Source of the DNA: Proteromonas lacertae
Taxonomy: Eukaryota; Sar; Bigyra; Opalinata; Proteromonadidae
Length of the DNA stretch: 64,000 nucleotides
Direction: 5' to 3'
Assembly: GCA_002245135.1 (NCBI GenBank)
Contig: NGBS01000295.1
Location: forward strand, 248,001 to 312,000
Within the stretch, counting starts at the first letter, position 1, and every line of letters starts with the position of its first letter. The notes beneath the pieces are model-generated. The model ran no database searches. It had not been told where the DNA came from and saw only the letters and a program-made list of their open reading frames with translations. This document shows, in pieces, positions 24,343-56,253 of the stretch. The translations under genes and the position numbers were made by a program.

Positions 24343-24406
24343 GAAACATGAATTAAATATTATAAATAAAGGATAATTAGGAAAAATAGAATAAAGATAA
24401 GGAAAA

Positions 24407-25033: not shown

Positions 25034-25255
25034 TAATAAAAACTATGGTGTTTGAAAATTATGATTAACCAAAATACATTTAATACAGAAACAGTTCCCG
25101 CCTTTTTCATACGTTTTATTCCCTATTTAAATAAAAAACGTTTTTTAGTTCTGTTACTTTTTATTAATTTTATAAATATTAGTATATATATAAACTTATT
25201 TGCTTTTAATCTTTACTTATAATAATTCGCTTATTATATTCTATAGGTAGAGAAA

Positions 25256-27520: not shown

Positions 27521-27705
27521 TTTTATTATTATATATTTTCTATTAAAATAAATAAAATATTATTTTTGTATTTTTGTTTTGAAAACTATCATAAACAGAT
27601 AATAATAAGCAATATCTTATCAGAATATTGATTGAGTATAATGTAGAGAAGGTTAAAGAATGTAAAACAAAAAAGCTTGGCTTGAGAAAACAAAAATAAT
27701 TCTAA

Positions 27706-28775
27706 ATGTTTTCTAGACATATATCGCCTGGATCGTTTGTTCGTATCTTGAATAGGAAATCTGTATACATTATGTTTTTAAAAATTAGCAATGTTTGCCA
27801 AAATATGCACATCTACCCAATTTCAACACAATTTTTAACAATACACTACTACTAAGACAATTTTCTAGTTTTTCACACATACTGTTTGATGAAGATAAAC
27901 CTAATGAAACGCGTATGTATTTCAATTGTTATTTTTAGTTTCAAGACTGCTGAAGAAGATAAAAGAAGTAGAAAAAAATATCAACAATCAAGGAAATTCT
28001 AATCCAGATCCAAAAGAAGATCCTCCAGATAATAAAAAGCCAAAAGGAAGAAAAATCAACAAATCTAAAGACAAAGAAAAGTCATCAAAAAAAATACCAC
28101 CACAGAAAGATTCAGAGCATAAAGAAAAGGATCATCACGAAGAAAAAACAAAAGAAGAAGATAAAAAAGAAAATAATAATAACAATAACAATAAAGATGG
28201 AAATAATGATGGTGATTTAAACAGTCTATTACCAAATATTGATCCAAAATTATCATGGTATTTATTAGCAGCTATAGTATGTGGAGTAATTGCCTATGAT
28301 GCAGCTGGTAAAACAAATAGCAGAGAAATATCTTACAGAGAATTTATTGATAATTATGTATCATCAAATGATGTGAAAGAAATCATCATTCAAGATGGAA
28401 AAATGGTATATGTTATTTCAAAAACAACTGGAAGTATATATATATTATTATTATTATAATTTATTCAATTTTTAAATAGAAAATGCTATGTTTACAATTG
28501 GAGATGCAGGATCCTTCGAAAAGAAATTAGAATTAGATCAAATGTCATTAGGAAAAGAACCATCAGAGTTTATACCCATTAAATACAAATATAAAGGTAA
28601 CTCAATGCTTTTACCATTGTTATTTAATGTGGTATTACCTTTTGGTTTAATTTATGTATTATATCTGATGATGACTAAAGGTAAGAATGGAAGTGGAGGT
28701 GGTGCAAATATGTTTAAGAATATGATGGGAATTGGTGATGTTCCAATAGCAGAGAATCCTCCAGTAAAAGTCAAA

Positions 28776-28808
<33 letters not shown>

Positions 28809-30257
28809 ATGGAAATTATGGAATATGTTGATTTCTTAAAGAATAGTGAGAAATATTCAAAATTAGGTGCAAGAATACCAAAAGGTGCTATATTATCTGG
28901 TCCTCCTGGTACTGGTAAGACATTATTAGCAAAAGCTGCAGCTGGTGAAGCAAATGTCCCATTTTTATCAATGTCTGGTTCTGATTTTGTGGAAATGTAT
29001 GTTGGTTTAGGTGCTAGTAGAGTGCGAAGTTTGTTTGAAAAAGCAAGAAAGAAGTCACCTTGTATTGTATTTATTGATGAAATTGATGCAGTTGCTAGAG
29101 CAAGATCAAGTGTATGAATATATATATATATATATTATTATTATTATTATTATTATTGTATATAGAATAAAATGGGTTCTAATGATGAAAGAGAAAACAC
29201 ATTAAACGCATTATTAGTAGAAATGGATGGTTTTAAATCAACAGATTCAGTAGTTGTTTTAGCTGCAACTAATAGAGTTGATATATTAGATCCAGCATTA
29301 TTAAGACCAGGAAGATTTGATAGACAAATATATGTAGATAAACCAGATATAAAAGGAAGAGAAGCAATTGCAAAAGTTCATTTACAAGGTAAAATATTAA
29401 AAGAAAAACCAGAATCAATGGCAAGAAGAATAGCATCTTTAACACCAGGTTTAACAGGTGCAGAAATCTCCAATATATGTAATGAAGCAGCAATATTTGC
29501 AGCAAGAAGAGATAAAAATGAAATAGATTTTGATGATTTTGAATCTGCAATAGATCGAGTAGTTGGTGGTTTAGAAAAGAAGAATGCTATTATTACACCT
29601 CAAGAAAAGAAAACAGTCGCTTATCATGAAGCAGGGCATGCTACAGTAGCTTGGATGTTAGAATATGGAGATCCATTAGTAAAAGTAACAATTGTACCAA
29701 GAGGACCAGCTGCTCTAGGCTATGCTCAATATTTACCAAAAGAATTACATTTATATACAAAAGAACAATTGATGGATAAGTTATGTACTGCTTTAGGTGG
29801 AAGAGCATCTGAAGAGATATTAATTGGTCGATGTTCTAGTGGTGCTTCTAATGATTTAGAACAATGTACAAATATTGCATATCAAATGATTGCTAGTTTT
29901 GGAATGAGTGATAAGATTGGTTATGTGAATTATGGAAGTATGCAGAAAGATACATTTACTAAACCATACAGCGATATGACAGCTAGAGATATAGATTTAG
30001 AAGTAAAAGAGTTATTAAAAGAAGCTTATGAAAAGACAAAAACAATAGTGAAACAATATGAAAGTAAGATTAAAGAATTAGGAGAGTTGTTATTGGAGAA
30101 AGAGACAATCACTCAAGCTGATGCGAAGGAGATATTAGGTGAAAGAAAATGGGGTAATCCAAAGGAATATGAAGAATTTTTGGATTTGAGTTGGAGAGAA
30201 AAAGATAAGAAAGAGAAAGATGAGAAGAAAAAAGATGAAGATGTGAAGAAAGAATAA
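27706..30257 (+). CDS. AFG3L2: Mitochondrial m-AAA protease, AFG3L2/paraplegin (FtsH) family
   Basis: Five exons, with introns beginning at 27763 and ending before 29166, give about 800 aa, equal to AFG3L2. The enzyme is an ATP-dependent zinc metalloprotease of the inner membrane, degrading misfolded proteins on the matrix side. A 26-nt intron (27763-27788) joins [19 protein letters not shown] to an arginine-bearing continuation ending [10 protein letters not shown]: a convincing mitochondrial presequence. A charged, low-complexity segment, TM1 ([16 protein letters not shown]), the FtsH extracellular domain and TM2 ([19 protein letters not shown]) follow. The AAA module has GPPGTGKT (Walker A), CIVFIDEID (Walker B) and [11 protein letters not shown]. 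The protease has HEAGHA. The C-terminus is lysine-rich. All catalytic residues are intact. Confidence 0.95.
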
Positions 30258-30367
30258 TTTTTGATTTGTTATTGATAAATGTATTATTTTTTTTAAATAT
30301 ACTATTGTTTTTTAATATCTGACAGAATGGACAAACACATATAACAATGTTAATTACAAAATACTAT

Positions 30368-30685
30368 TTAATCTTGCTTTGGTTGATGTAACTTCATATG
30401 AATAGCTTGATGAGATGGTTCTCGTGTTGGAAGAGGCTTCATTTGCATGTGCCTTGTTTCTTTTTCAAGTATTTTCTTCGGTGTTTGAATGAAATCATTC
30501 TGGTGCATTCCAAACGATTTAATTAGTTCATTTTCATCATTCTTTTCCGTTATTTGATTATCTTTATCATCTGCTTTCTCATTTTGTTCATTTATTTCTT
30601 TCTTGTCTCTATTCTGAGGGATTGACACTCTTGCTTTACCTACTTTGACAGCAGGCTGAACATTATTAGGTATATTTTGTTCCAT
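30368..30685 (-). CDS. Small basic protein, death-associated-protein (DAP)-like
   Basis: One exon of 105 aa. PAVKVGKARVS near residues 11-21 resembles the conserved N-terminal motif of DAP1/DAPL1 (PAVKxGxxRI). The C-terminal TREPSHQAIHMKLHQPKQD is similar in place and character to the IQQPRK-type tail. The middle is lysine and glutamate-rich and probably disordered. DAP1 is a TOR-linked inhibitor of translation and autophagy in animals. With only two short motifs the call is tentative. The upstream frame stays open to 30769, but the ATG at 30685 gives the family-like start. It is convergent with the AFG3-like gene, 110 nt away. Confidence 0.5.
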   Translation of the reverse strand: MEQNIPNNVQPAVKVGKARVSIPQNRDKKEINEQNEKADDKDNQITEKNDENELIKSFGMHQNDFIQTPKKILEKETRHMQMKPLPTREPSHQAIHMKLHQPKQD

Positions 30686-30818
30686 CACTATTTTTATTAA
30701 TGATTTCGTGTTTTTATAAAAAGGATCTTTATAAGGATAAAAATGATATATAATAATTATGAAACACATATTTAAATCAACAAAATATTAATAAAAAATA
30801 TCATTTACAATTAAATAT

Positions 30819-32967
30819 TTAATTTTGATGAGTAACTGATAATAATTCTATTGAATTATTAAGCGGGTATATTGAGACATAAGGATATAATGGAGAAGGT
30901 AAATCTTTAACAAGTAAAACAGGAGATGAATCATTATGACTAATCCAAAATTCTCTTTTATTCATATCAACAATCACTTCATAAATTGAACCATCTCCAT
31001 GATTATTGAAATTTGGATTTGATGAAACAACTGTTCCAATACGACATCTTGAAGTAATATCTGCACTTCTACCACCATATGCAAAATAATTACATGTTGT
31101 TGATTGTTCATAAATACTATCACCAGAATATGTATTATCAGTTGATAATCCTAAGAATAAATTGTCACTACAATTGGAATTATTATTTCTTTTAATGAAT
31201 TTGTATTTGATATGATAAACTCCATTTTCCAGTTTTAAATTCAAATAACTATGAACAAAACGATTTCCACTTGTCTTTGTTATTAATTTTCCATTATTTG
31301 AGATTGATATTCCATCATTTTTGTTTAATTCTGTGAATTTACATGCAACAGATTCTAATGATATTTTGAATTTCTTTTCATTTAGCAATATTCTTACATG
31401 TTATTTCATATTCTCTCTTTTCTGATTTCTTTATTTACTTTTCCATGAATTATTCCACTTTCTTTATCAATCACTATTCCATCAGGTAAAAATGGATTTA
31501 TTGAAAATTCACATTTTATTCCATCAAATGAAGGAATTATTGAGATTTCTTCATCTAATATAAATGAATATTCTGATTGAGGATATGAAAAAGATGTAAT
31601 TTTCTTTACTAATATTCTTTCAATCATTTCTTTATCAGTGATTATGTCTGTTATATCGATTATCTTCTTCTTCATTTAAACCACTTTCATAGATATAATT
31701 AATTATAAGCTGAATTGATTCTTCACTTAAATGATAGTGGAAATTCAATATTTTGAATAGAGTGTCAATTCCACAAAGATCCTTCAATTATTGAATTATG
31801 CTTATTTTCATCTTAACAAACAAACATAAACATTTAACTGTTCTTTCATTCTCTTTTTCATTTAATAATCTCTTTAAAAATAAACTTTTCTTGTCTTTTT
31901 CAACTATTCAAATATATAATTATTTATATTCTATACTTTCATATTCTATTCCACTATCTATTATCATTAATAAACCAATTTCGATTCAATTTTATTTCAT
32001 CTTTGTTTAATAATATAGCAATTATTTCTTCTAAATTATTTTGGTTTAACATTTTCATATCTTCTACTTCGATTGTTGTTTTATCTTCTTCTATGATAGT
32101 ATTTATATATCATTTCTTGTATTTTATCATTCGAAATCTCTCTCAAATCTATTGATATATGATTAACTCTTTTGATTTCATCATATAAATTCAGTTCTTT
32201 TATTTCTGACATTGTTTTATTTGACATTTCTTCAATTTTTATCTTTTCTAAATGAATATATTTCTTTAATAATTGTTTAAAACTCTTCTTTTAATTCATT
32301 CACTTCATCTTCATTTTTATTCATATTCATCATTTCATTTTTCCATTTCAATAATTGATTCAACAACCAAGTTTCATTCTCAATTATCAGATTATTACAA
32401 CTTAATATAAATTCTAAATCTTCGATTGTTAGTTTGAATAATAATTCTTCATTTCTTAAATATTTATAACCATTTCTTTTGATATAATCTTCACACATAT
32501 CCTTTATATCACTTATACTTTTACTATTTATTTCATGCAGAGTATTAAATATTTCCATCATTCATTAAGTCATTTAAATGATTTTTAATATATTTCTTAC
32601 ACTTTTGTAATAAAAACATATCATCATAAATATAAACAAAATGATAACATTTTACATACATTATCATCTCTTAATTCCATTGTTCCACCACTGTAATACT
32701 TCTCTATCTCATAAATATAACTCAACATCACAACAATCATATAACTCTAACACACCATTGAATTGATCATCTTCTATTAACTTCTTGAACGTTTTATTAC
32801 CATGTATTAACAACGATTTTACACACAACACTTCTTCTCCTTTTATTATCACTTTCATATCACCATATCCTTCATTCACTAAATCTCTTCCCCAAACTAT
32901 TCAAATATATTATTCAATTAATTTCAATATACCCTCTTAAGCCAATATCTGAATTTATTAATTTCAT
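30819..32967 (-). pseudogene. Decayed BTB-BACK-PIG-SPRY gene
   Basis: This region is homologous throughout to the BTB genes at 47.6 and 54.1 kb: MKLINSDI start at 32967, a 36-nt intron, GDMKVIIKGEEVLC of the BTB domain, CEDYIKRNGYKYLRNEELL and ETWLLNQLLKWKNE of BACK, then NPFLPDGIVIDKESGIIHGKV of the putative-Ig (He_PIG) domain. Where the intact relatives carry a ubiquitin-like domain, this copy ends in a SPRY-like domain (NGVYHIKYKFIKR ... FWISHNDSSPVLLVKDLPSPLYPYV). At least five frameshifts or stops interrupt it (near 32878, 32725, 32630, 32560 and 31395-31410), including after a short intron-like segment. The SPRY part is still open over 570 nt. So it is a degenerating gene, or a gene with many indel errors, whose tail was exchanged relative to its paralogues. 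Confidence 0.8.
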
Positions 32968-33073
32968 TGAAATTTATTCGTTATGAAATGAAATTGGTTT
33001 ATCAAAACATATTTGAAATATCAAACTTTCACAGTTTATTTTTTTAAAAATCTTCCTCAATAAATAAAGTGAA

Positions 33074-33434
33074 ATGTCTGCTTCTATGCCAGCTGACAGT
33101 GTAGTATTAGAAGAAGAAGTAGATCCAGATTATGAGCCTTCCGAAGCTGAAATAATCGATTATGCCAAATGGTTAGGAATGGATCCTGTAGCTGATAAAG
33201 ATTTACTGTATTTAGCGAAAGAGGGTTTAAAAGTACAAATATTAGGTGTAAATGTAATAGGCTCCTTTACCTGCTGATTGGAAGCCTTGTCATACAACAG
33301 ATTCTAATGATATATATTATTTCAATTTTCGAACCGGTGAGAGTACTTGGGAACATCCCTGTGATGATTATTATCGAAAATTATTTGATGAAGCAAAAAA
33401 GAAATATCCACATCATCTACAAAATCCAAAATAA
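33074..33434 (+). CDS. Short WW-domain protein resembling the CEP164 N-terminus
   Basis: Two exons (33074-33232, 33261-33434; 28-nt intron) give 110 aa. The protein matches only the N-terminal part of CEP164: [29 protein letters not shown], then [20 protein letters not shown] and a WW domain with [21 protein letters not shown]. Both WW tryptophans and the DWKPC / HPCDxxYR flanks that characterise this subgroup are present. It stops right after the domain (HHLQNPK), whereas animal CEP164 continues for more than 1,300 residues. In animals the N-terminal WW region recruits TTBK2 to ciliary distal appendages. Given the cilium genes nearby, a minimal basal-body protein is plausible. It is convergent with PSMA1, with 41 nt between stop codons. 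Confidence 0.75.
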
Positions 33435-33475
33435 TAACAATAATAGAAAAATAATTATTATATTTCTTTTATTCT

Positions 33476-34344
33476 TTAATCTTCTTCTTCAATTGGAGCT
33501 GCATCATCAGCAGCACCAGCGTTATCATCACCACCTGGTTGATTAGCTGCTTGTGTTGATTGATATTCATCAATCCATCTCTGCAATTCTGACTCATCAA
33601 GCTCATGATAAGCAACACCATCTCCAACAACACTTACTGATATATTCTCACTATTAATAGTCTTATCAGCTTCTGTACAGTCACTTAATGCATAGATTGC
33701 ATGTTTTATTAAATCATCAAGAGAAGCATCAATGAATTCTGGTTCATCATTTTCATTAAATAATTTTCCTAAATATGTTCTTGCTGATTGAGATCTTGAA
33801 CCAATGGCAGTACTGTAATATTCAAAGGCTGTACCTGATGGAGAGGTTTCATATAAGTGAGATCCCATGTCATCATAACCTATTACTAATAATCCAACAC
33901 CATATGGTCTTCTGACATAGGTTTGGGTACAGTTTTGATATTTTGCTGCAATTTGACGGACTAACTTATAAACTGGCATTGATTCGTTGTATGTGAATTT
34001 ATAATTGACACATTCGTTTCTCATGTATTTGCCAAGACTTCTTGCATCAGCTGTGAGTCCAGCAATTGCAATGCCTATATTATCACTAATTTTAACTAAT
34101 TTTTGTTGATAACCTGCTAATTCTGATGGTTGTCTATAAAGAAGTAAAATAATCAATTGAAATACCTTCTGTATGCTGCAAGAACTGCATACTTGTTTGA
34201 TTTTAAACCGACGCAAGCACTACCTTGTTTTACAGCTTCCATTGCATATTCTACCTACAAAAATTAAATTAAACGGCATACTTGGAATAGACGACCTTGT
34301 GGACTCCACACGGTCACATCAGTATCATACATGTTCTTGAACAT
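33476..34344 (-). CDS. PSMA1: 20S proteasome subunit alpha-6 (PSMA1)
   Basis: Three exons give about 270 aa. The protein starts [37 protein letters not shown], the alpha-subunit signature of the alpha6/PSMA1 type ([17 protein letters not shown]). Later blocks [41 protein letters not shown] and [13 protein letters not shown] are specific to this subunit. The Asp/Glu/Ala-rich C-terminus ([19 protein letters not shown]) is typical. Alpha subunits gate the proteolytic chamber and have no catalytic Thr. Introns of 27 and 32 nt lie at the expected phase near 34280 and 34160. Confidence 0.95.
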
Positions 34345-34447
34345 CTTTTAAGAATAATTTAATGAATATTGAAAGAAAATTTTCGATTGAGGTGTTATAC
34401 CCCAAATTAAAGTTTGATTTAAGAAACGAATTTTATACTAAATTTTG

Positions 34448-35682
34448 ATGGATAGTGCATCATTAGCAGATCTTCCTGTTGATAACATCATTAATCAATT
34501 ATTAGGAACATGGGACAAACCGCCTGACACACAAGTATGAAATTGATAATATCGTGTAGGTCGATTTAGCTGAGAAAGATATTAAAAAAATATGTATGGT
34601 ATCTAGAGAAATATTTTTATCGCAACCCATGCTGCTAGAGATATGTTCTCCTGTGAATATTTGTGGTGATATTCACGGTCAATTTGCTGATCTACTACGG
34701 TATGTTTTAGTTATATATACTTTCCTAGAATGTTTGAAATAGGAGGACTACCACCAGTCTCGAATTATTTATTTTTAGGTGATTATGTTGATAGAGCTAA
34801 TCGTGGTATTGAAACAATAAGTCTATTATTATGTTTTAAAATTAAATATCCTGAAAACTTTTTTATATTAAGAGGTAATCATGAATGTAGTTCAATAAAT
34901 CGAATTTATGGTTTTTATGATGAATGTAAGAGAAGATATTCTATAAAGCTATGGAAAATATTTGGAGATGTATTTAACTGCCTTCCAATATCAGCAATAG
35001 TAGATGATAGCATTTTGTATAATAATTTCATTATTTTCTAATATAATATAGTTGTTTGCATGGTGGATTATCACCCTCATTGACTGATCTAGGTCAAATA
35101 GCCAATATTCAACGTCCAACAGATATACCAGATGAAGGATTGATTTGTGATTTGTTATGGGCAGATCCAGATCCTGATATCTATGGTTTTCGAGGCAATG
35201 ATAGAGGAGTATCTTATGTATTTGGAGCTGATGTTGTGGATACCTTTCTAAGGTCATTTGATTTAGATTTAATAGCTAGAGCACATCAAGTGGTTGAAGA
35301 TGGATATGAATTTTTTAATAATGTATTTATGATTGGTATTATGTTATAAAATCAATAGAGAACACTAGTAACAATATTTTCTGCGCCAAATTATTGTGGT
35401 GAGTTTGATAATGCTGGTGGTATGATGATAGTTAGAGAGGATTTAGTATGTTCTTTCAAAATATTACGTCCTGGTTTAGCAGAGGATTATGAGGAGGAAG
35501 TTGAAGGACAAGAAGGACAAGCGCCTGATGTAGATGCAGGAGCAGTGTCCAATGCTGGTGCTAATGTGAGTAGTAGTGAAGTGGGAGTTGGTGAGAAGTC
35601 TTTAACACCAGTTCCAGAAGAAGGATTGAAACCAGCTCCAAAGGATCCACCTCATAAGAGACTAATGTCACCAAGACCTTGA
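34448..35682 (+). CDS. PPP1C: Serine/threonine protein phosphatase PP1 catalytic subunit with C-terminal extension
   Basis: Five exons separated by short introns encode about 375 aa. Metal-binding and catalytic motifs are complete: [50 protein letters not shown] and [42 protein letters not shown] and [17 protein letters not shown] mark it as PP1 rather than PP2A. After FKILRPG the protein continues for about 75 residues rich in Gly, Ala, Val and Pro ([20 protein letters not shown]) ending KRLMSPRP, longer than the about 30-residue tail usual for PP1. The MSPRP tail resembles the TPPR-type CDK phosphorylation motif at the end of other PP1s. Start: [19 protein letters not shown]. Confidence 0.93.
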
Positions 35683-35824
35683 ATATAATGCTAAAATACT
35701 TTTTTATTAGTGTGTAATCTATATATTTACTTTTTTTCTTTTTTTAGAATTGGTGTATGAAAACTAATTCAAATTTTTCATAAACCATCTTTATATCTTT
35801 CTGTTGGTTAAAAAATAGTCATAA

Positions 35825-37307
35825 ATGGGTGGTGTAGCATCAAATCTAGCACATACATACATATCTGAGGATTATGAAGTATTTTTCTGGCTTATTTTAA
35901 TGTAGATTACCACAAATCTTGGTCCAAAGAACAGCTTTGAGGTATGCTCAGTTACAAACAAAAAGAATAACTCAAGAGAAAGACTGAAAGCTGTTTCATG
36001 CAAATGTTTCAATGACTCAAATATCTCGAATTATTTCAATTCCTTGTTACAAATCCAAAATTTGAAGGTTGCGAGTATTGTTCCAATGACTATGCTTAAG
36101 AAAACACCAGAATACGTAGTAGTAATCACTCCAGAATATAATCTCTCTCTTACTTCCATAAAACCAGTGGAATACTTTAGAGAAAAAAGATGTTTTGGAA
36201 TGTTAATGGAAATTAGCAGTGCGGTTCAAGTAATGCATGCAAATAACATCATAAATGGCTCAATTAAACCATCTAATGTATTAATCAGCAACGAAGGACA
36301 TTTTGCTTTATGCGACAATTGTCAATACTTATTATACGTAAATAGCGACAATTCAATCCCAATGAATAATAGAAATGTAAATTATATAGCTCCAGAATTA
36401 TTAGAGAATAAACAAGTTGATAAAAGTATTGATATTTGGAATATTGGAACATTATTTTACTATTGTTTAAGTGGTGAAAATCCATTTGAAGATACAACCT
36501 TTATAAACAAATGTAATAGAATCAGAAGAGGTGATTTTAAAGATATTAGTAACATTGATGAAAGAGCAATGAAACTATTAAATAAAATGTTACAAGTCAA
36601 AAGTCAATATCGATTAAAGATTGAAGAATTATTAATGGAATTGAAACAAATGAGTGGATTGAATTATGAACTAGCCAGTGGTAGTTCTAATAATAATAAT
36701 AATAATAATACAAGTTATGAGAAAGGAATAAGTAGTACAATTCCAGCTTGTCCAATATCAAGTAGTAGTTATGGAGGTGGTAGTAGTGGTGAATGTGAAT
36801 TTCTAGCTGAAGGAAAAGGTAAAGGATTGATAATAAGTGAAGATAAGAAGATATTAACACATATCAGTGATATAAGTAATGATACAAAGTGTTATTTGAA
36901 TGTGAAATTAGACAGTAGTAGTACTTGCTATCATATATTATTCCAAGTTAGAATAAGTGTTAAATATGGCAGTGGAAGTTTTGTTTTTGGTGCAACTACT
37001 AATAAAAATGCAAATCCTAAGCCATATATTGAAGATGAAAGTTCTTTTGCTATTAGAATAGTGCAATGGTGGTAGTTGTATGAGTGGAGCTAATGGTATA
37101 AGAGCTGTAGAAAGACCAAATATAAAAGCAATTAATGAAACAAGATATGAACTTATTTTTGATTTGAAAAAGAAGGAGTTTAGTATAAAACATGAAGATG
37201 AAGAACCTATATTGTTAGTTAAGAAGATTGGATATCCTCTTTATCCATATGTTGAGAATGTATTTCCAGATAATGTTGTTGAGATTATGAGATATTGGAA
37301 AGATTGA
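35825..37307 (+). CDS. Pseudokinase fused to a SPRY-like domain, with one frameshift
   Basis: First exon MGGVASNLAHTYISEDYE (35825-35878), 27-nt intron, then a kinase-like domain to about 36660. HRDxxxxN is replaced by NGSIKPSNVL and DFG by CDN, so the catalytic Asp is lost; the P-loop is also absent. C-lobe landmarks APELLENK and SIDIWNIGTLFYYCLSG remain. A Ser/Asn/Gly linker (SSNNNNNNNTSYEK) leads into a SPRY-like domain (CYLNVKLDSSSTCYHILFQVR ... KKEFSIKHEDEEPILLVKKIGYPLYPYV), homologous to the tail of the pseudogene at 31 kb. A single-base shift near 37060 separates ...SSFAIRI from CNGGSCMSG; excising an intron here would delete conserved SPRY sequence, so I treat it as a real lesion or a sequencing error. 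MGG at the N-terminus could permit N-myristoylation, unlike the other family members. Confidence 0.75.
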
Positions 37308-43209: not shown

Positions 43210-46200
43210 ATGACTGATGCTGTTAAAGTCGTAGTTAGAGCTCGTCCTATGAACTCAAAGGAAAAGCAGGATAATAGAAAAAACATTGTAGATATCAATA
43301 GCGCTACAGGACAAGTATCAATACATAATCCTTCAGAACCAGATAGAGAGCCTAAAACTTTCACATTTGATGCTTCATATGATGATAAAAGTACACAACG
43401 TCAGGTTTACGATGAAGTGGCTTATCCTCTTATAGAAAGTGTGATAAAAGGTTTCAATGGTACAATATTTGCTTATGGACAGACGGGTTGTGGTAAAACA
43501 CACACCATGGTTGGTAAACCTGATCCACCTGAACTGAGAGGTATTATTCCAAACTCATTTGTTCATATATTTCAAACAATAAAAGCTTCATCCAGTAATG
43601 TAGAATATTTAGTTAGAGGAGCATTTTTAGAAATTTATAACGAAGAAGTTCGTGATCTACTAGGAAAAGATTCTCATCAAAAATTAGATTTAAAAGAAGA
43701 TCCTAAAAAAGGAGTATTTGTGAAAGATTTGACCTGGGAAATCGTTCGAACAGAAGCAGAAATGGAAGTAATCATGGACCGAGGTAATAAGAATAGAACA
43801 GTAGGTTCTACTCTAATGAACGCTGAATCTTCTAGAAGTCACTCAATTTTTACCATTATAATAGAATGTCAAATCGAAGAAGATGGTCGATCACATATAA
43901 CAGCTGGTAAATTGAATTTAGTCGATTTAGCTGGTTCAGAAAGAGCAGATAAAACTGGTGCTCAAGGTGATAGATTAAAAGAAGGTTGTAAGATTAATTT
44001 ATCACTATCTGCATTAGGTAATGTTATTTCTGCTATTGTAGCTGGTAAAGGCCATATTCCTTATAGAGATAGTAAATTAACTCGATTATTACAAGATTCA
44101 TTGGGTGGAAATACAAAGACAATAATGTGTGCTGCTTTAGGTCCAGCTGATTATAATTATGAAGAAACTTTAAGTACGTTGAGATATGCAGATAGAGCAA
44201 AGAAGATTAAGAATAAGCCAACAATCAATGAAGATCCTAAAGATGCATTACTTAGACAATATAAAGAAGAAATAGAGAGATTGCAAAAGTTATTAGAAGC
44301 TCAAAATGGTGCTGGTGGTCCAGGAGGTGAACCTCAAGTAATCGTTAAAGAAGTAGTGAAAGAAGTAGTTAAAGAAGTTCCTGTAGTTAAAGAAGTAATT
44401 AAGGAAGTAATAAAAGAAGTTCCAAAAGAAGTAATTAAAGAAGTAGTGAAAGAAGTAAAAGTAGAAGTTCCTAAGGAGGTTGTAAAGATAAAGAAAGTTC
44501 AAGTAGTTAAAGAAGTGATTAAAGAAGTGCCAGCTAAAGGAGGAGAGAACAATAATGAAGTAATAGAAGGAGGAGGTGAAGAAGAAGAAGAAGGAGAAGT
44601 TAAAGCCAAACCAAAAGCTAAAAGTAAAGCTAAAAAAGACTCATTAGATAGTAATAATGGAGATGGTACTCCAATTGAATCTGTTGATGATAGTCCAGTA
44701 AGAGAAGTCAGTTCAACTGATAGTAATAAAGAAGGAGTAAAAACACCTCAAAATCAAGATCAAATCAAGCCAATTAAGAAAAAAACACCTCCACCAAAAC
44801 CAGTAAGAAAACCAGCTCCAGCTGATGCAGTGAAAGAAGTAAAAGAGATGTTGAAAGGTGCAAGTGTTGATATGGTTAAAGATTTAATAAAGAATGTACC
44901 AGCTAATGTAATGAGAGAAGTGATTAAAGTAATGCCTGTTAATATAGTTAAAGAGATTATTAAAGATACTCCAATTGAAGATGTAAGTGAAGTAGTTAGT
45001 GAAGTACCTAAAGATATAGTTAAAGAAGTAGTAAAAACTGCTCCAAGTCAAGTTATTAATGAAGTTATGAAGGAAATTCCTGAGGAAATAAAAAGTGAAG
45101 TTGTTAAAGAAATACCAAAAGAAATGGTTAAAGAATGTGTTAAGACTGCTTCTAGTGAAGTAGTTACTACAATAGTGAAGGAAGTTCCAAAAGAAATGGT
45201 TAAAAGAAATTGGTTAAAGAAGTTCCAAAAGAAGTCGTTAAAGAGATTGTTAAAGAAGTTCCAAAGGAAATAGTGAAAGAAGTCGTGAAGGAAGTGCCAA
45301 AAGAGATTATAAAGGAAGTGATTAAATATGTACCAAAAGAAGTAATAAAAGAGGTTGTTAAAGAAGTTCCTGTTGAAAAGATTGTATATAAAGAAGTGCC
45401 AAAAGAGGTAATAAAAGAAGTGGTTAAAGAAGTTCCCAAAGGAAGTTATAAAGGAAGTAATAAAGGAAGTTCCTGTAGAAAAGATCGTTTATAAAGAAGT
45501 TGAAAAAGAGGTGGAAAAGATAGTATATAGAGATAGAGATGTAGCAAAGGAAGGAGGAGAAGGTGATAAACAAACACCAAAAGAAGTAGTTAAAGAGGTA
45601 GTAAAGGAAGTTCCAAAGGAAGTTATAAAAGAGGTTGTTAAAGAAGTTCCAGTTGAAAAAATCGTATATAAAGAAGTGCCAAAAGAGGTAATAAAAGAAG
45701 TAGTTAAAGAAGTTCCAAAGGAAGTAGTGAAAGAAGTTGTTAGTCAAAAGCAATTGGAAGAGCAAAAGTTACTTCAACAATATAATGAAGCAATCACTCA
45801 ACAAAGAGATCAATTAGGAGAAGAACTAGCACAACAAAGAGAAGCAGCAGAAAAAGCAGCAGCTGATAAAATAGCATTAGCAAAACAATTAGAAGAATTA
45901 AAGAAGAAATTACAATCGAATGTTATATCAACTGTTGAAGAAGAAGATGAAGAAGTATTAAAGGCAAGAGAAGAAGTAGAAAAACGAAAGAAGGAACATG
46001 AAATGAAGAAAAAGAAGAAGAAGGAAGAAAAAGATAAAGCATTACAAGAAGAGAGTTTATCATTACAAAATGAAATTGAAGAAGTGAAATTCAAGAACAG
46101 TGATGAAGCTAAAGTCAAAATAAAGGAATTAAAGAGTGAATTGAAAACTACAAAGAAGTTATACAGAAGTGCAATAGAAGATATGGAAGATATGGAAAAA

Positions 46201-47187: not shown

Positions 47188-47648
47188 CAAATTATAAAGA
47201 GTTAAAATTATATTTAGTGGAAATTAAAATTATTTAAATAGTAATTATTTCATGTTTATTTTTTTTTTTCTCTTTTTATTGGTGTGATTTGTTAAAATTT
47301 CAACTTCTTGATTGAATCACCTCTCATTTTTTCACAAATCACCAAATCTCTAATTGTATCAAATTTAAATTTCAGATTATTTATTAGTTTTAAAAACATG
47401 TTTATTAAATACCTTCGCAAATAAATTCTTCTTATGGGAAAAAGAATATTTTAATTATTACATTCACTTTAGTTCGATTTGAAATGTCTTTATTAATCGT
47501 TTGAATATACTAATATGTATAAATATTTAAGATGATAAATGTGAGTTATATCGAATAGCTTAATCAACAACAAACACTTTATATAGAAAATATGTATATG
47601 ATATGTGAAAATTAGAAGGTTATAATCATAATAATATTTTGTCATATT
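47188..47648. other. Convergent intergenic region between kinesin and the BTB gene
   Basis: AT-rich, with a T run near 47260. No gene seen. The outer edge of inverted repeat arm A falls at about 47575. Confidence 0.6.
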
Positions 47649-49413
47649 CTATCCTCTCAATCTTAACACTAAATACAATGCAGAGCCTTCATGAATGCCA
47701 TAATCAGATAGCTCTCTATCATCTTCTATATCTTTACCTTCATATGCCAATCTCTGATAACTAACTTTTATTCCTACTATTTTCTGTATTTTTTCTTTAA
47801 CATAATCAACAGTATAATGTTTACAAACTTTAAATGTATATGAATTGCCGATTAACTGTTTTACATAAATAGTAAAAACATCCTTAATATTAATATTATC
47901 AAATTCTAATGATATTTTAAACTTCTTTGAAGTATATACATCTTTACAAGTGATTTCATATTCTTTTTCTTCAAGTTTATTTAATACTTTTCCATGAATT
48001 ACTCCTGTATTTTTATCAATATTTAATTCTTCAGGTAATGAAGGATTTACAGAAAATTCACCTTCTGTATAACATGAAGGATAAATTATTATTTCTTTAT
48101 TTGTTTGTAATAAATAAAAAGACTGAGGATTTGAATTATTCCTATTTGATGATTTATCAAATATTATTTCAGGTAATATATTTTCATCTAAATAATAATG
48201 GTAACTCATTATTCTGCAGAACATTTCTTTTCCACATAGATTTTCTATAATATCAATACTTCTTCTATTATCTACATAAAAGCTTAAACATTTAATAATT
48301 CTATTACTTGGTTTTCTTTTATATTTACTCAGTAACTCTAATAATATTACATTCTTATCTTCATTTCTTACTATTAATAAAATCATACTATTCATAATAT
48401 ATACTTTTATATTCAATTTTACTATCCATTATCATTAATAATCCAATTTCTTTCATCTGTATTTCATCTTTATTTAACAATATAGATATGACATCTTGAA
48501 GATTATTTTGTTTTAAAATTTGTATATCATCTTCTTCTATTGTAGTTTTATCTTCTTCTACATAGTATTTAAATATAATTCTTTTGATTACATCATTTAC
48601 AATCTCTCTTAAATCTATTGATATATGATTTGTTCTATCTACTTTATTATATAAGTTCAATTCTTTCATTTTTGACACTGTTTCATTTGATAGTTCTTCA
48701 TCATTTATCTTCTCAAAATGAACAAACTTCTTTAACAACTTAACAAATTCTTCATTTAATTCATTTTCATTTTCATTTTTCCATTTCAATAATCTATTCA
48801 ACAACCAAGTTTCATTCTCAATTATCAGATTTTTACATCTTAATATTAATTCTAAATCTTCAATTGTTAGTTTGAATAATAATTCTTCATTTTTTAAATA
48901 TATATAACCATTTCTTTTGATATAATCTTCACACATATCCTTTATATCATTTATATTCTTGCAATTCACTTCATATAATGAATGAAATATTTCCATAGTC
49001 ATTGAATCATTTAAATGATTTTTAATATATTTCTTACATTTTTGTAATAAAATCATATCATCATAATAAATACAGAATAAAAGAATTTTACATACATTAT
49101 TTTCTTTCAATTCCATTGTTCCACCACTGTAATACTTCTCTATCTCTAAAAAACTATCAATATCACAACAATCATATAACTCTAACTCTCCATCAAATTT
49201 TTCATCATCAATTAACTTACGAAAGGTCCTATTTCCACGAATGAGTATGAATTTAACACATGACACTTTCTCTCCTTTTATTATCACTTTCATATCTCCA
49301 AACCCTTTATTCACTAAAGTTCTTCCTATACTATAATAATAGATATTTATAAATATGTCTGTTACATATATGTTATACCCTTTGGCTTTAATTTCAGAAT
49401 TTATTAATTTCAT
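47649..49413 (-). CDS. BTB-BACK protein with PIG and ubiquitin-like domains (arm A copy)
   Basis: Three exons (49413-49379, 49330-48405, 48370-47649) give exactly 560 aa. The BTB domain covers about residues 18-115 (GDMKVIIKGEKVSCVKFILI ... LQKCKKYIKNHL). BACK covers about 120-215 (CEDYIKRNGYIYLKNEELLF, ETWLLNRLLKWKNE). A helical segment ends LLMIMDSKIEYK at the second intron. A putative-Ig (He_PIG) strand (NPSLPEELNIDKNTGVIHGKV) follows. The last about 75 residues are a ubiquitin fold: IYVKQLIGNSYTFKV ... YQRLAYEGKDIEDDRELSDYGIHEGSALYLVLRLRG. It stops after a single Gly, so the usual GlyGly end is missing. BTB-BACK proteins commonly serve as Cul3 substrate adaptors; combining one with a C-terminal ubiquitin-like domain is unusual. 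Function otherwise unknown. Confidence 0.82.
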
Positions 49414-49744
49414 TCCAATTATTTGTGAAAATTCGATCGTTTTTAATTCGGGGATTTTTTTGGTAATTCTATTTTTTCATTTTATTGAAATATGTAACTA
49501 TAATAGTTATTTTTAAAATAATCATCAGTTTATAGAAAGCCAGGTTTGATTCAACAAATTATTTGATTAATTAAAGCAAGTAGTTAAAATATTTAATATA
49601 CATCTCCCTTATAGACAATTTCTTTCGTAATAAAGGAAAGAGTTAAAAAGGGATTGCAATAACAAAAAAATCAAAATTTTTATCAAGCTTCTACCAAGCC
49701 ATTTTGAAGATTTTTGCTTATTTTCTTGCTGACAAAGTGATAGA
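49414..49744. promoter_or_regulatory. Divergent promoter between BTB and pseudokinase genes (arm A)
   Basis: 331 nt separates the start codons of two divergent genes. No ORF. The identical spacing and nearly identical sequence recur at 53783-54113, so both arms carry the same putative bidirectional promoter. It includes runs of A or T of 6-7 nt and a CCAAG / CTTGG inverted element near 49690. No specific factor site is recognised. Confidence 0.55.
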
Positions 49745-52700
49745 ATGAGTGATAATTTATTTAATGATATTAACAAGAATGGATATAAGGTATATTGATA
49801 AATTTCTAAACTTTAGGTCGCCAATTGTGTGAATAGAGAAAGCAGTGTATTATATGAGATAAAAAATGTATATGACGATAAAATGTATTATTTAAAAGCC
49901 ATCTTCATAAAAGATAAGAATATGAGTAAAGCAAATGATTTCTGTGTTATATTAAACAGAATTAAGGCAATGAATTCTACTTATTTAGTTCAATATGTAT
50001 CATATTACTTAATGGAATATTGTGTTTACTACATATTACCAAAATTCGAAATATCTTTACAGACAATGCCTCATAATCTAAATAGTGAAAGTGGTGATGG
50101 AATATTTACATTAATTAAATGTTTATGTGAAGGTACGAAAGAATTACACGAAAATGGGATAATAAATGGAAATATAAAACCATCAAATATTTTCTTATGT
50201 AAAAACGAGAAAGGAGAATTAGAATTTAAGATAAGTGATTATTGCTATAATAAAAAATACTGGAAACATGATATGAGAGTTTGTGAGTGTAATATACAAT
50301 ATATAAGTCCTGAAGAACTAGAGAATAGAGAGTTAAATGAGAAAGTTGATGTTTGGAGTATTGGATCAATATTATATGAAGTAGTTAATGGATATTGTGG
50401 ATTTGGAAATGGAAGTTTATATGAGAAGATGAACAATCTAATAAATTGTAGATATTTACTATCAAATTGTGAATTTAAAGGAGTTTATGATAAAGAGATA
50501 TTTGGTATGATATTTGTGAAAAATGTGAATGAAAGAATTAGTGTTGATAATCTTTTATCAGTAATTAAAAGTATATATCATAATATAGTTTAATATAAAT
50601 AGAGTTGATTGAAACAACATATTTACCTGTAGAAAAAGTTGAAGAAGAAGGAAAGAAAATGATTTACAATAAAAATTGTCAACAACCACAACATCAATTA
50701 CAACCTCAACCATGTCAACATCAATATAAACAACAACCATTACAGCCAAATAAATTCATAAGTTTAATCAATGATATAAAAGGGAATTATAATAATTCAA
50801 ATATTAAACCACCATCACCACCTCCACTTCCACTACAGCAACAATATCCTCCACCAATTCCACAATATTCTAATTATTATCCTTCATATATAGATAATAA
50901 TCAAATGCCATTTTATTCTCCACAACCTCAAATCCCTATTCAGAATTATAATGTTAATCAAAACCAACAATTTAGTTATTATCAACCTCCTCCTCCACTT
51001 CCTCCTAATCAACAGAATTATCAATATTTACCACCTATTCCACCTCCACAAATCCAACAAAATCCTTATAAAATGAATTATTATCCACCAATACAACCAC
51101 AATCTGAAGAATATCTAGAAAGAAAACAGATGAAGAAAATGCCTTATTATAAAAGTAAAAGAAAGTATCTGTCTTCACCATCAGAATCATCTGAAGAAGA
51201 AGATATTGTTAAAGAAAATGGAAATATAAAGTATCTTAATCATTATAATATACAAAGACACTCATCATCAACTTCACCATCAACTTCACCATCATCCTCT
51301 TCTTCATCTTCTGAGGAAGAGATTGTTAATAGAAAAAAGAAAGATGAAGATGATAAAGTATTAATTAATATGATGAATTTATATTTTTTTAGATAATTGA
51401 ATTTTTCATGAATGATATTAAAGATATCTTTAAAAATCCAGACACAATCGGAATTAATAAATATGTCGAATATAGTAATGTATATAATCATATTTATAAT
51501 TATACATAGTTTATATTTCCTTGTTTTAATCAATTATCTCCATTATTCAACGAAAAAATCAAAAAGCAATTCATTACAAATAATGTGATAAGAAAATATT
51601 ATTATTCATTAATTGAATCATTAATATATATTTGCTCGTATATATAACAGTTTTATTGTTATGCTAATAGAAAAAGTGATAATTTAAAAAGAACAGCATC
51701 GATCCATTTATTAAATATAGCAATAAACAGTATGAAATATACATTCAATGATTCAAAATTGTTACTATCGTTAAATAAATTGCTTGAAAGTAATAATAAA
51801 TAATTAAATATACTAATAATAGATTGTCGAAACAACCAATTCAAAAAGAATAAAGAATTAGAAGAAATAAAAAAAGAAGTATCAAATAAGCAAATTAATG
51901 AAATTATTTATAAATATTATATAAAAGAAGATGAAAATGATATAAAAGAAGAAGATATAGAAATACTGAAAGAAAATAACATTAAAGAAATAATTTCCAT
52001 ATTATTAAATAAAGAAGAAGTAATATTTAATGAGATAGGTTTATTAATGATAATGGATAGTAAAATTGAATATAAAAGTATAAGTTTATATAGTGTGTAT
52101 TATAAATAGTTGGAGAAGATAAGAAAAATAGAATATTAAAAAAGTTGTTAGATAAATATGAGTGTAAGAGATTGCTTAAATGTTTATGTTTTTTTATTGA
52201 TGATAAAAAAAATATTGACACTATAAATAGTGTTTATGGGAAGAATATTATCATCAATTTATTATATATACACTCTTATTTAAATAAAGAATCCATCATA
52301 CTTTTAATCGAATATTTGAAAGAAAATGACTTAATTGATGAAGTAGAAAAATATAGGATTAGAATAGAACTTAGTAATTCTTTTATAAACGGTGAACTTT
52401 ATGATATATTTTATTATTACCATTACAAACCTATATATCAACTAAATGAAGAAGTATTAATAAAACCATCAATTGAAGGAGAAGGAGGAGTATTTACAGT
52501 TCATCCATCATTACCTGATGGTTTAATATTAGATAAAGAAAGAGGAATAATTCATGGAAGAGTAAATATAAAAACAGAGAAGAAAACATATGAAATAACA
52601 TGGAAAAATGATAAAAGAGAAAAAAAAGAAAGTATTGTAATAGAATTTGAGAATATAGATATGAGTGGTTCATTACAAATACTCATTAAATTATTAACAG

Positions 52701-52903
52701 GAAAGACTTTTACAGTAAACGCAAATCCAGATTGTAGTGTGTATTATCTAAAGAAAAAAATATGTTTAATTGAAGAAATACAACCTGATGAAATAAGATT
52801 GATACATAATGGCAAACAATTGGAAGATTGTAAAATACTGTCTGATTATGATATTCATGAAGGTTATATGTTGTATGTAGTGTTAAAATTGAAAGGAGGA
52901 TAA
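49745..52903 (+). CDS. Pseudokinase, proline-rich linker, helical and PIG modules, C-terminal ubiquitin-like domain ending GlyGly
   Basis: Eight exons (49745-49789, 49817-50570, 50603-51357, 51393-51479, 51510-51637, 51671-51789, 51823-52077, 52110-52903) total 2,937 nt, 978 aa, with all seven introns (27-35 nt) in phase. Residues 16-267 are a kinase fold with IINGNIKPSNIFL for HRD and SDY for DFG, so the catalytic Asp is lost. Residues about 290-430 are rich in Pro, Gln and Tyr (QPPPPLPPNQQNYQYLPP). A Ser/Glu stretch follows (SSPSESSEEED), then a helical block. From about residue 650 it is homologous to the BTB genes: LLNKEEVIFNEIGLLMIMDSKIEYK, a PIG strand (HPSLPDGLILDKERGIIHGRV) and a ubiquitin fold (LQILIKLLTGKTFTVNA ... 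LIHNGKQLEDCKILSDYDIHEGYML) ending KLKGG-stop. The apparent TAA at 51645 is removed by the 51638-51670 intron. Role unknown; it combines a signalling-type domain with a potentially conjugation-competent terminus. Confidence 0.78.
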
Positions 52904-52948: not shown

Positions 52949-53782
52949 TCATATTTTATATTCCATATATAAAAGATTATCAACACTAATTCTTTCATTC
53001 ACATTTTTCACAAATATCATACCAAATATCTCTTTATCATAAACTCCTTTAAATTCACAATTTGATAGTAAATATCTACAATTTATTAGATTGTTCATCT
53101 TCTCATATAAACTTCCATTTCCAAATCCACAATATCCATTAACTACTTCATATAATATTGATCCAATACTCCAAACATCAACTTTCTCATTTAACTCTCT
53201 ATTCTCTAGTTCTTCAGGACTTATATATTGTATATTACACTCACAAACTCTCATATCATGTTTCCAGTATTTTTTATTATAGCAATAATCACTTATCTTA
53301 AATTCTAATTCTCCTTTCTCGTTTTTACATAAGAAAATATTTGATGGTTTTATATTTCCATTTATTATCCCATTTTCGTGTAATTCTTTCGTACCTTCAC
53401 ATAAACATTTAATTAATGTAAATATTCCATCACCACTTTCACTATTTAGATTATGAGGCATTGTCTGTAAAGATATTTCGAATTTTGGTAATATGTAGTA
53501 AACACAATATTCCATTAAGTAATATGATACATATTGAACTAAATAAGTAGAATTCATTGCCTTAATTCTGTTTAATATAACACAGAAATCATTTGCTTTA
53601 CTCATATTCTTATCTTTTATGAAGATGGCTTTTAAATAATACATTTTATCGTCATATACATTTTTTATCTCATATAATACACTGCTTTCTCTATTCACAC
53701 AATTGGCGACCTAAAGTTTAGAAATTTATCAATATACCTTATATCCATTCTTGTTAATATCATTAAATAAATTATCACTCAT
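52949..53782 (-). CDS. Truncated pseudokinase copy (arm B)
   Basis: Two exons (53782-53738, 53710-52949) give 268 aa. The first about 260 residues are identical to the N-terminus of the gene at 49745, including NGNIKPSN and VDVWSIGSILYEV. At 52969 the repeat ends, and the frame continues for only a few non-homologous residues (MEYKI) before a stop. It therefore lacks the proline-rich, helical, PIG and ubiquitin-like modules. It could make a free-standing pseudokinase domain, or be a non-functional by-product of duplication. Its stop lies 46 nt from the stop of the full-length gene, to which it is convergent. Confidence 0.75.
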
Positions 53783-54113
53783 TCTATCACTTTGTCAGCA
53801 AGAAAATAAGCAAAAATCTTCAAAATGGCTTGGTAGAAGCTTGATAAAAATTTTGATTTTTTTGTTATTGCAATCCCTTTTTAACTCTTTCCTTTATTAC
53901 GAAAGAAATTGTCTATAAGGGAGATGTATATTAAATATTTTAACTACTTGCTTTAATTAATCAAATAATTTGTTGAATCAAACCTGGCTTTCTATAAACT
54001 GATGATTATTTTAAAAATAACTATTATAGTTACATATTTCAATAAAATGAAAAAATAGAATTACCAAAAAAATCCCCGAATTAAAAACGATCGAATTTTC
54101 ACAAATAATTGGA
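53783..54113. promoter_or_regulatory. Divergent promoter between truncated pseudokinase and BTB gene (arm B)
   Basis: Reverse-complement copy of 49414-49744, with the same 331-nt length. No ORF; probably drives both arm B genes. Confidence 0.55.
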
Positions 54114-55878
54114 ATGAAATTAATAAATTCTGAAATTAAAGCCAAAGGGTATAACATATATGTAACAGACATATTTATAAATATCTATTATTATAGTATA
54201 GGAAGAACTTTAGTGAATAAAGGGTTTGGAGATATGAAAGTGATAATAAAAGGAGAGAAAGTGTCATGTGTTAAATTCATACTCATTCGTGGAAATAGGA
54301 CCTTTCGTAAGTTAATTGATGATGAAAAATTTGATGGAGAGTTAGAGTTATATGATTGTTGTGATATTGATAGTTTTTTAGAGATAGAGAAGTATTACAG
54401 TGGTGGAACAATGGAATTGAAAGAAAATAATGTATGTAAAATTCTTTTATTCTGTATTTATTATGATGATATGTTTTTATTACAAAAATGTAAGAAATAT
54501 ATTAAAAATCATTTAAATGATTCAATGACTATGGAAATATTTCATTCATTATATGAAGTGAATTGCAAGAATATAAATGATATAAAGGGTATATGTGAAG
54601 ATTATATCAAAAGAAATGGTTATATATATTTAAAAAATGAAGAATTATTATTCAAACTAACAATCGAAGATTTAGAATTAATATTAAGATGTAAAAATCT
54701 GATAATTGAGAATGAAACTTGGTTGTTGAATAGATTATTGAAACGGAAAAATGAAAATGAAAATGAATTAAATGAAGAATTTGTTAAGTTGTTAAAGAAG
54801 TTTGTTCATTTTGAGAAGATAAATGATGAAGAACTATCAAATGAAACAGTGTCAAAAATGAAAGAATTGAACTTATATAATAAAGTAGATAGAACAAATC
54901 ATATATCAATAGATTTAAGAGAGATTGTAAATGATGTAATCAAAAGAATTATATTTAAATACTATGTAGAAGAAGATAAAACTACAATAGAAGAAGATGA
55001 TATACAAATTTTAAAACAAAATAATCTTCAAGATGTCATATCTATATTGTTAAATAAAGATGAAATACAGATGAAAGAAATTGGATTATTAATGATAATG
55101 GATAGTAAAATTGAATATAAAAGTATATATTATGAATAGTATGATTTTATTAATAGTAAGAAATGAAGATAAGAATGTAATATTATTAGAGTTACTGAGT
55201 AAATACAAAAGAAAACCAAGTAATAGAATTATTAAATGTTTAAGCTTTTATGTAGATAATAGAAGAAGTATTGATATTATAGAAAATCTATGTGGAAAAG
55301 AAATGTTATGCAGAATAATGAGTTACCATTATTATTTAGATGAAAATATATTACCTGAAATAATATTTGATAAATCATCAAATAGGAATAATTCAAATCC
55401 TCAGTCTTATTATTTATTACAAACAAATAAAGAAATAATAATTTATCCTTCATGTTATACAGAAGGTGAATTTTCTGCAAATCCTCCATTACCTGAAGGA
55501 TTAAATATTGATAAAAATACAGGAGTAATTCATGGAAAAGTATTAAATAAACTTGAAGAAAAAGAATATGAAATCACTTGTAAAGATGTATATACTTCAA
55601 AGAAGTTTAAAATATCATTAGAATTTGATAATATTAATATTAAGGATGTTTTTACTATTTATGTAAAACAGTTAATCGGCAATTCATATACATTTAAAGT
55701 TTGTAAACATTATACTGTTGATTATGTTAAAGAAAAAATACAGAAAATAGTAGGAATAAAAGTTAGTTATCAGAGATTGGCATATGAAGGTAAAGATATA
55801 GAAGATGATAGAGAGCTATATGATTATGGCATTCATGAAGGCTCTGCATTGTATTTAGTGTTAAGATTGAGAGGATAG
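54114..55878 (+). CDS. BTB-BACK protein with PIG and ubiquitin-like domains (arm B copy)
   Basis: Three exons (54114-54148, 54197-55122, 55157-55878) give 560 aa, the same structure as the arm A gene. Changes relative to arm A include Ile to Phe in the BTB (DDMFLLQKC), IKGICEDY for IKDMCEDY, LLKRKNE for LLKWKNE in BACK, NPPLPEGLN for NPSLPEELN in the PIG strand, and ELYDYGIH for ELSDYGIH in the ubiquitin fold. It also ends LRLRG with one Gly. No frameshift or stop has accumulated. The substitution of the BACK Trp and the Ser to Tyr change in a usually conserved ubiquitin-fold segment may indicate relaxed constraint, or simply allelic-level variation. Confidence 0.82.
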
Positions 55879-56253
55879 AATATGACAAAATATTATTATG
55901 ATTATAACCTTCTAATTATCACATATCATATACATATTTTCTATATATAGTATTTATTGGTGAAATAAAGAAATATAAATGAATTGCCTAATATGTTATA
56001 ATTTATAGCTAAATAACTATATCAGCTTAAGAAGTGATATATAAACACTAACATTTACTTATACAATAAGAAATGAAATAAAATTGAGAATTATTTCGAT
56101 TTTAAAAATGTAGATCATTAGTACCATATATATCATATACATTCATGATTTCATTACTTTCATATTCCTTTGCATTATAGAATAGAATATGTATTTGTGT
56201 TCCAGAATTTTTCGTTTAAATCCCCACATTTAAAAGATTAATTTTTGATTGAG
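55879..56253. other. Intergenic region, end of arm B to the GH27 gene
   Basis: Arm B homology ends at about 55952. The rest is AT-rich, with no gene seen; the GH27 promoter must lie here. Confidence 0.6.

Follow-up and report, generated by a model that had tools for sequence, protein, structure and literature searches.

A Proteromonas lacertae pseudokinase gene that ends in a ubiquitin-like domain, more likely a docking surface than a conjugated modifier

Rad23, Dsk2 and parkin are embedded ubiquitin-domain proteins. In IKK and TBK1, an active kinase domain is followed directly by a ubiquitin-like domain (Ubl) and then by a helical dimerisation domain, and the BTB-BACK adaptors of cullin-3 consist of BTB and BACK domains with a C-terminal beta domain. 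The Giardia Neks make up a large family of kinases, most of them without a catalytic residue, according to the available text of PMC3218828. Here we describe a gene of Proteromonas lacertae located in a 64,000-nt window (the whole stretch of DNA analysed, positions 248,001 to 312,000 of NGBS01000295.1), which is part of contig C1111 in a genome of 50.2 Mb and 1181 contigs. The gene, at window positions 49745..52903 on the + strand, encodes 978 amino acids (aa) in the order kinase domain, Pro/Gln/Ser-rich linker, helical block, weak PIG match and ubiquitin fold. We favour, with moderate confidence, its reading as a pseudokinase scaffold whose C-terminal Ubl serves for non-covalent docking, like the Ubl of embedded (type II) ubiquitin-domain proteins.

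Like the Rad23/Dsk2/parkin type, the protein would hold a ubiquitin fold permanently within a longer chain and may display a ubiquitin-like interaction face; unlike that type, its Ubl is C-terminal and the chain ends at the domain with Gly or Gly-Gly, on a pseudokinase or, in related genes, on a BTB/BACK protein. It shares with IKK/TBK1 the presence of a kinase domain and a Ubl in one protein, and IKK chains were among the PDB matches of its kinase domain. Here, however, the HRD Asp is lost, kinase and Ubl are more than 600 aa apart, and the Ubl comes last, after linker, helical block and PIG. The neighbouring gene and the family of the tail resemble the BTB-BACK cullin-3 adaptors in having BTB/BACK and then a C-terminal module, but a helical-PIG body lies between, the module is unmatched in PDB and only weakly matched in Pfam, and at this locus the Ubl replaces it. 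The kinase part recalls the Giardia Nek pseudokinase expansion, also a large lineage-specific family with the catalytic residue mostly lost, in which, by contrast, many members carry ankyrin repeats and a Ubl is not mentioned in the available text (PMC3218828).

The sequence-only reading had resolved the gene into eight in-phase exons and 978 aa. Spliced-frame translation reproduced this model exactly, and all introns are kept in a second genomic version, ~98% identical, on contig C664. The features of the gene are as follows.

49745, + strand: start ATG (spliced frame)
49745..49789, + strand: exon 1, aa 1-15 (spliced frame; kept in the second version)
49817..50570, + strand: exon 2, pseudokinase domain, Pkinase match at aa 24-227 (Pfam 8.9e-20; relatives P0001/P0002 61-63% identical)
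50165..50173, + strand: catalytic-loop HRD position, aa 132-134, reading NGN (Asp to Asn; NGN in P0001 and P0002 too)
50571..50602, + strand: intron 2, 32 nt, kinase/tail joint (in phase; spliced reading resembles the intron-less paralogs L055/L057/L059)
50603..51357, + strand: exon 3, linker, Gln/Pro-rich and then Ser-rich (site of all four in-frame indels seen in the second version)
51393-51479, 51510-51637, 51671-51789, 51823-52077, + strand: exons 4-7, with introns 4-6 between them, helical block (spliced frame; tail family)
52110..52903, + strand: exon 8, end of the helical block, PIG-like strands, ubiquitin-like domain and stop (spliced frame, Pfam, predicted model)
52484..52600, + strand: weak He_PIG match, aa 840-878 (Pfam 0.0064, under cut-off)
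52673..52900, + strand: ubiquitin-like domain, aa 903-978 (gapless alignment to ubiquitin 1-76)
52886..52888, + strand: codon of ubiquitin position 72, Lys for Arg (sequence)
52895..52903, + strand: Gly-Gly codons and stop (sequence)
52901-52903, + strand: stop codon (spliced frame)

The seven introns (49790-49816, 50571-50602, 51358-51392, 51480-51509, 51638-51670, 51790-51822 and 52078-52109) are 27-35 nt long; all end in TAG, six start with GTAT and one with GTAA. By eye, the last intron matches the one in the neighbouring BTB/BACK gene in both position and phase. The kinase-tail joint at intron 2 is supported because three paralogs without an intron there (L055, L057 and L059) read through it, with ..KYLPEVVEMKEEEE / ..YLPEVVEMKEEEE or a near variant against ..TYLPVEKVEEE in the spliced window gene. 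When intron 2 is read through unspliced, a kinase-sized frame with a stop at 50591-50593 results, and 10 of 26 paralogous frames (versions of this gene excluded) stop within ~25 residues of that place. Both observations would suit two separate genes, a stand-alone kinase stopping at 50591-50593 and, downstream of it, a linker-helical-PIG-Ubl gene. We judge this arrangement very improbable, given the agreement of the three intron-less paralogs with the spliced reading, the likeness of intron 2 to the other six in length and ends, and the residues before the stops in other paralogs, which by eye point to a GTAT donor in this position too. At the level of sequence, the kinase-tail-Ubl gene is confirmed as real, and the fusion looks real as well.

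The Pkinase profile matched aa 24-227 with 71.6 bits (cut-off 31.7). The HRD motif reads NGN; the beta-3 Lys is kept, as is the DFG Asp (in the form DYC). With the profile above its cut-off and Asp replaced by Asn, the kinase fold without the HRD aspartate proposed from sequence alone was recovered, and the assignment as a pseudokinase, predicted to be catalytically dead, holds. A protein search with the kinase exon returned P0001 and P0002, two unnamed relatives from another sample with 61 and 63% identity. Among 33 kinase-like sequences, a set biased to close relatives (30 loci from the best kinase matches, three of them versions of this gene, and three others in the window), 24 have Asn at the HRD Asp position, six have Asp, two Gly and one Ser. 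The genome contains at least 140 kinase matches; this and the genome counts given below for tail, ubiquitin, BTB and He_PIG are lower bounds, with only the best candidates scored and with haplotype copies and exons counted separately. Kinase-family members in the window at 5511-6008, 21065-21799 and 35906-37072 read HGD, YNN and NGS at the HRD position.

The ubiquitin profile PF00240 matched aa 905-975 (1.8e-16, 60.1 bits against a curated cut-off of 25.4), and 37 of 76 residues of the Ubl are identical to the genome's own ubiquitin. It keeps Leu8, Arg42, Ile44, Lys48 and Val70, and has Lys in place of Arg54, Arg72 and Arg74; Leu8, Ile44 and Val70 form what we take to be the ubiquitin-like interaction face. 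Structure prediction of the last exon gave a model that was weak overall (mean predicted local distance difference test score 64.9, 3-row alignment), the end of which is a ubiquitin fold with a TM-score of 0.94 to 1ubq (normalised by 1ubq) and a root-mean-square deviation of 1.1. The predicted beta-grasp fold agrees with the ubiquitin fold that had been proposed for aa ~900-978.

In the docking reading, the dead kinase domain would bind a substrate or another partner, spacing and presentation of the Ubl would fall to the linker and the helical-PIG part, and the Leu8/Ile44/Val70 face of the Ubl would recruit ubiquitin-binding proteins such as parts of the proteasome, shuttles, ligases or deubiquitinases; the Gly-Gly end would probably be incidental to this role. 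What sequence and model show is the exon structure, a catalytic loop that has lost its HRD Asp, a ubiquitin fold and a shared tail. The Ubl is the last domain of the 978-aa chain and integral to it, and another is found on the 576-aa BTB/BACK neighbour. The tail is shared with a BTB/BACK-containing family, several members of which carry a different C-terminal domain where the Ubl stands here. Cullins and many BTB matches (at least 120) are present in the genome, so a ubiquitin-ligase system is likely present.

The free Gly-Gly end of the sequence-only reading, KLKGG directly before the stop, is present in this copy, and the Gly-Gly and stop codons with their 3' flank occur once in the genome (<=3 mismatches). 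Five Ubl ends were compared: KLKGG-stop in this gene, RLRG-stop in its C664 version, RLRG-stop in both BTB genes of the window, and RLRG followed by PNMTKYYNDYNC-stop in the C664 BTB gene, whose end, with 12 residues after RLRG, was read by eye. Gly-Gly is thus found in one of five ends, or one of four among unbroken frames, and a free terminal Gly in four of five.

A Gly-Gly followed by nothing but the stop could allow an activating enzyme (E1) to activate the end and the whole 978-aa protein to be conjugated to targets, as had been suggested for this gene, and the recombination analysis given below suggests that Gly-Gly may be the gene's original end. In published selections, however, every clone obtained with the ubiquitin E1 had retained Arg72, and the NEDD8 E1 yielded no Arg, Lys or His at position 72, the Arg72 pocket of yeast Uba1 being Asn574, Gln576, Tyr586 and Asp591 (PMC3731359, in its available text). 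The genome's Uba1-like E1 (C502) keeps this pocket as GNTQ...SY....D (Asn/Gln/Tyr/Asp), and the Lys72 of the Ubl is neither the Arg of the ubiquitin E1 nor an uncharged residue as for the NEDD8 E1 in those selections. Moreover, Gly-Gly is not conserved among copies, the second version of the gene being without it, and the Ubl is not a small free-standing protein. Since the Gly-Gly copy has the wrong residue 72, and the other copies have Arg72 but no final Gly76, conjugation is unlikely; we give whole-protein activation a very low probability, and the other option raised from sequence alone, a decoy or non-covalent Ubl, appears the better reading. The genome also encodes a second, divergent ubiquitin-E1-like gene (L071, C132:45100-46500), whose changed pocket, CNVV for GNTQ, could in principle accept another residue. 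A further, very improbable reading is that this second E1 activates the Lys72 Ubl, so that the 978-aa pseudokinase is conjugated whole as a giant modifier and the single-Gly version is a non-conjugating allele.

The best alternative to the docking module, and a serious one despite being unlikely, is a C-terminal glycine degron, in which a Kelch-type cullin receptor would recognise the Ubl by its flexible Gly end and bring about turnover of the protein, the Ubl setting stability without conjugation. The four free Gly ends (one ..KGG and three ..LRG), the cullins of the genome and the presence of 9d1z, a KLHDC3 complex with G75Q ubiquitin, among the fold matches are consistent with it, whereas the fifth end, that of the C664 BTB gene, extends beyond Gly. 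KLHDC-type glycine receptors are known from animals, which also counts against a degron here. In favour of one, KLHDC-family ligases bind C-terminal glycines and have been assayed on ubiquitin itself as a substrate, according to the available text of PMC11568203.

With respect to the tail, a He_PIG match at aa 840-878 is present but weak (E 0.0064, 17.4 bits against a cut-off of 24); the PIG strand of the sequence-only reading therefore keeps a suggestive match, and falls short of the Pfam cut-off. A genome search with aa 519-978 placed the helical-PIG tail in a large family with at least 94 matches. Among the reported matches, the tail is joined to ubiquitin or to a kinase only at this locus. 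When the match tables were compared by eye, the only Ubl-tail joins were those of this gene and of its BTB/BACK neighbour, in the window as in C664, and that of the BTB copy in the right arm; none of the ubiquitin matches (at least 26) lay near a tail match outside C1111 and C664, and no other kinase match lay within ~4 kb of a tail match, the nearest pair being ~4.7 kb apart on opposite strands of C1088. With both joins confined to this locus, the domain order has the appearance of a fusion made locally within two expanded families, and we read the gene, from its sequence, as made by domain swapping within lineage-specific families.

Twenty-six tail loci were picked and 13 were read, one of which was the locus's own right-arm BTB gene. 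In seven of the other 12 (L023, L024, L027, L028, L030, L034 and L035), the PIG-like stretch is followed by a beta-rich domain of ~130 aa (by eye), and the remaining five end or break before or within it; a window paralog at 30822-31400 (- strand) has a beta-rich C-terminal domain too. Against PDB this domain matched nothing at E <= 1, and its Pfam matches were weak and scattered; by eye, it is perhaps SPRY-like. Protein searches, which depend on shared five-residue words, found no relative at E <= 0.001 with tail residues 520-978 (7998 candidates sharing most words scored) or with last-exon residues 1-190 (1026 candidates); by these searches, the tail family is therefore not traceable beyond this genome. 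In a tree of the shared exon, the kinase tail was positioned beside the BTB-Ubl tail; both are long branches, as the program warned, and a single Ubl acquisition is therefore not claimed.

The earlier statement that no described family with this domain order was known agrees with the tail protein searches and with a limited search of open-access full text, in which nothing relevant was found on the tail family or on a terminal Ubl in a kinase or pseudokinase. On this evidence the domain order appears unusual and unmatched in limited searches, and the product an embedded ubiquitin-domain protein rather than a new conjugation system. Elsewhere in the genome, which contains at least 150 He_PIG matches, C352 (~23445-36767) holds a 6929-aa open frame with many of them.

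The surroundings of the gene add an inverted repeat, a BTB/BACK neighbour with a related tail and a single-Gly Ubl, and the second version without Gly-Gly, all of which were absent from the sequence-only reading.

47564..50558, no strand: left arm of the inverted repeat (repeat comparison)
47649..49413, - strand: BTB/BACK gene with related tail and Ubl, 576 aa, ending LRLRG-stop, intron at 48371-48404 (translation, Pfam)
52969..55963, no strand: right arm of the inverted repeat, carrying the second copy of the BTB/BACK-Ubl gene and the larger part of a truncated kinase copy (repeat comparison)
54114..55878, + strand: second copy of the BTB/BACK-Ubl gene, ending LRLRG-stop (translation)

The arms are 2995 nt each, differ at 17 positions (99% identity) and are separated by 2410 nt. 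The truncated kinase copy is a frame running from 53710 down to 52949 on the - strand and ending ..LLYMEYKI-stop. In the 576-aa neighbour, BACK reached its cut-off (22.6 against 20.9 bits) and BTB did not (17.0 against 20.5 bits); its tail is 42% identical to that of the kinase gene across the last exon.

In the C664 version, all seven splice-site pairs are kept, with two single-base changes within introns. Four linker indels of 48, 66, 12 and 3 nt, all multiples of three, leave a frame open over 944 aa. Both window arms align to one C664 stretch, from which we conclude that C664 lacks the inverted copy. Where the likeness of the two gene versions ceases, at the far 3' end, the alignment also places a gap of 3 nt and an insertion of 1 nt at the stop codon, and the C664 gene ends in a single Gly. 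Its Ubl matches that of the window kinase gene as far as about ubiquitin position 69; position 72 and everything after it, flank included, match the right-arm BTB gene. The simplest account, and the likelier direction, is that the C664 end arose as a deletion via recombination between the two Ubl ends. The C664 BTB/BACK-Ubl gene (C664:8858-9607) reads past the Gly end and has an in-frame TAA before the Ubl in its last exon, so its Ubl end may never be made.

The same features would fit a decaying or chimeric, functionless locus, in which inverted duplication and recombination of Ubl ends made, and are now unmaking, an unselected fusion: the ~3-kb inverted repeat carries a truncated kinase copy, the C664 end switches from kinase-gene to BTB-gene Ubl sequence, a TAA precedes the Ubl of the C664 BTB gene, and the ratio of non-synonymous to synonymous substitution rates (dN/dS) is ~0.8 and ~1.1 in the two comparisons given below. 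We regard such decay as improbable, since both versions, of 978 and 944 codons, are free of frameshifts and internal stops, and kinase relatives with 61-63% identity exist in another sample.

Several observations weigh against the docking reading itself. Position 8 is Phe in the second version and position 44 is Ala in the BTB Ubl, so the hydrophobic patch varies between copies. On the recombination account, the KLKGG end of the window gene, Lys72 included, would be the older state, which weakens the argument that Gly-Gly was simply gained. Over 935 codons, the two gene versions differ by 18 non-synonymous and five synonymous changes (23 in all; dN/dS ~0.8), with 3/0 in the Ubl (73 codons) and 3/0 in the kinase part, and the two window BTB copies differ by 10 and two (12 in all; ratio ~1.1). 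With these ratios, recent constraint is weakly supported and not demonstrated.

The locus suggests a protist route to new signalling proteins by end-swapping on one tail, with BTB/BACK or a dead kinase at the front and a family-specific domain or ubiquitin at the back. The Ubl C-terminus varies among copies (Gly-Gly, single Gly or extended), apparently via recombination, and the copies form a small natural series for asking how embedded ubiquitin domains differ from modifiers that are conjugated. With Lys72 and the Uba1 pocket, the idea of conjugation is open to direct test.

The window is AT-rich, with a G + C content of 22-32% in 2-kb steps, and searches of it with Rfam (gathering threshold) and ARAGORN found nothing. 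At 44310-45740 lies a gene that by eye is kinesin-like, with a long repetitive coding region of VKEV/PKEV type in 12-nt steps.

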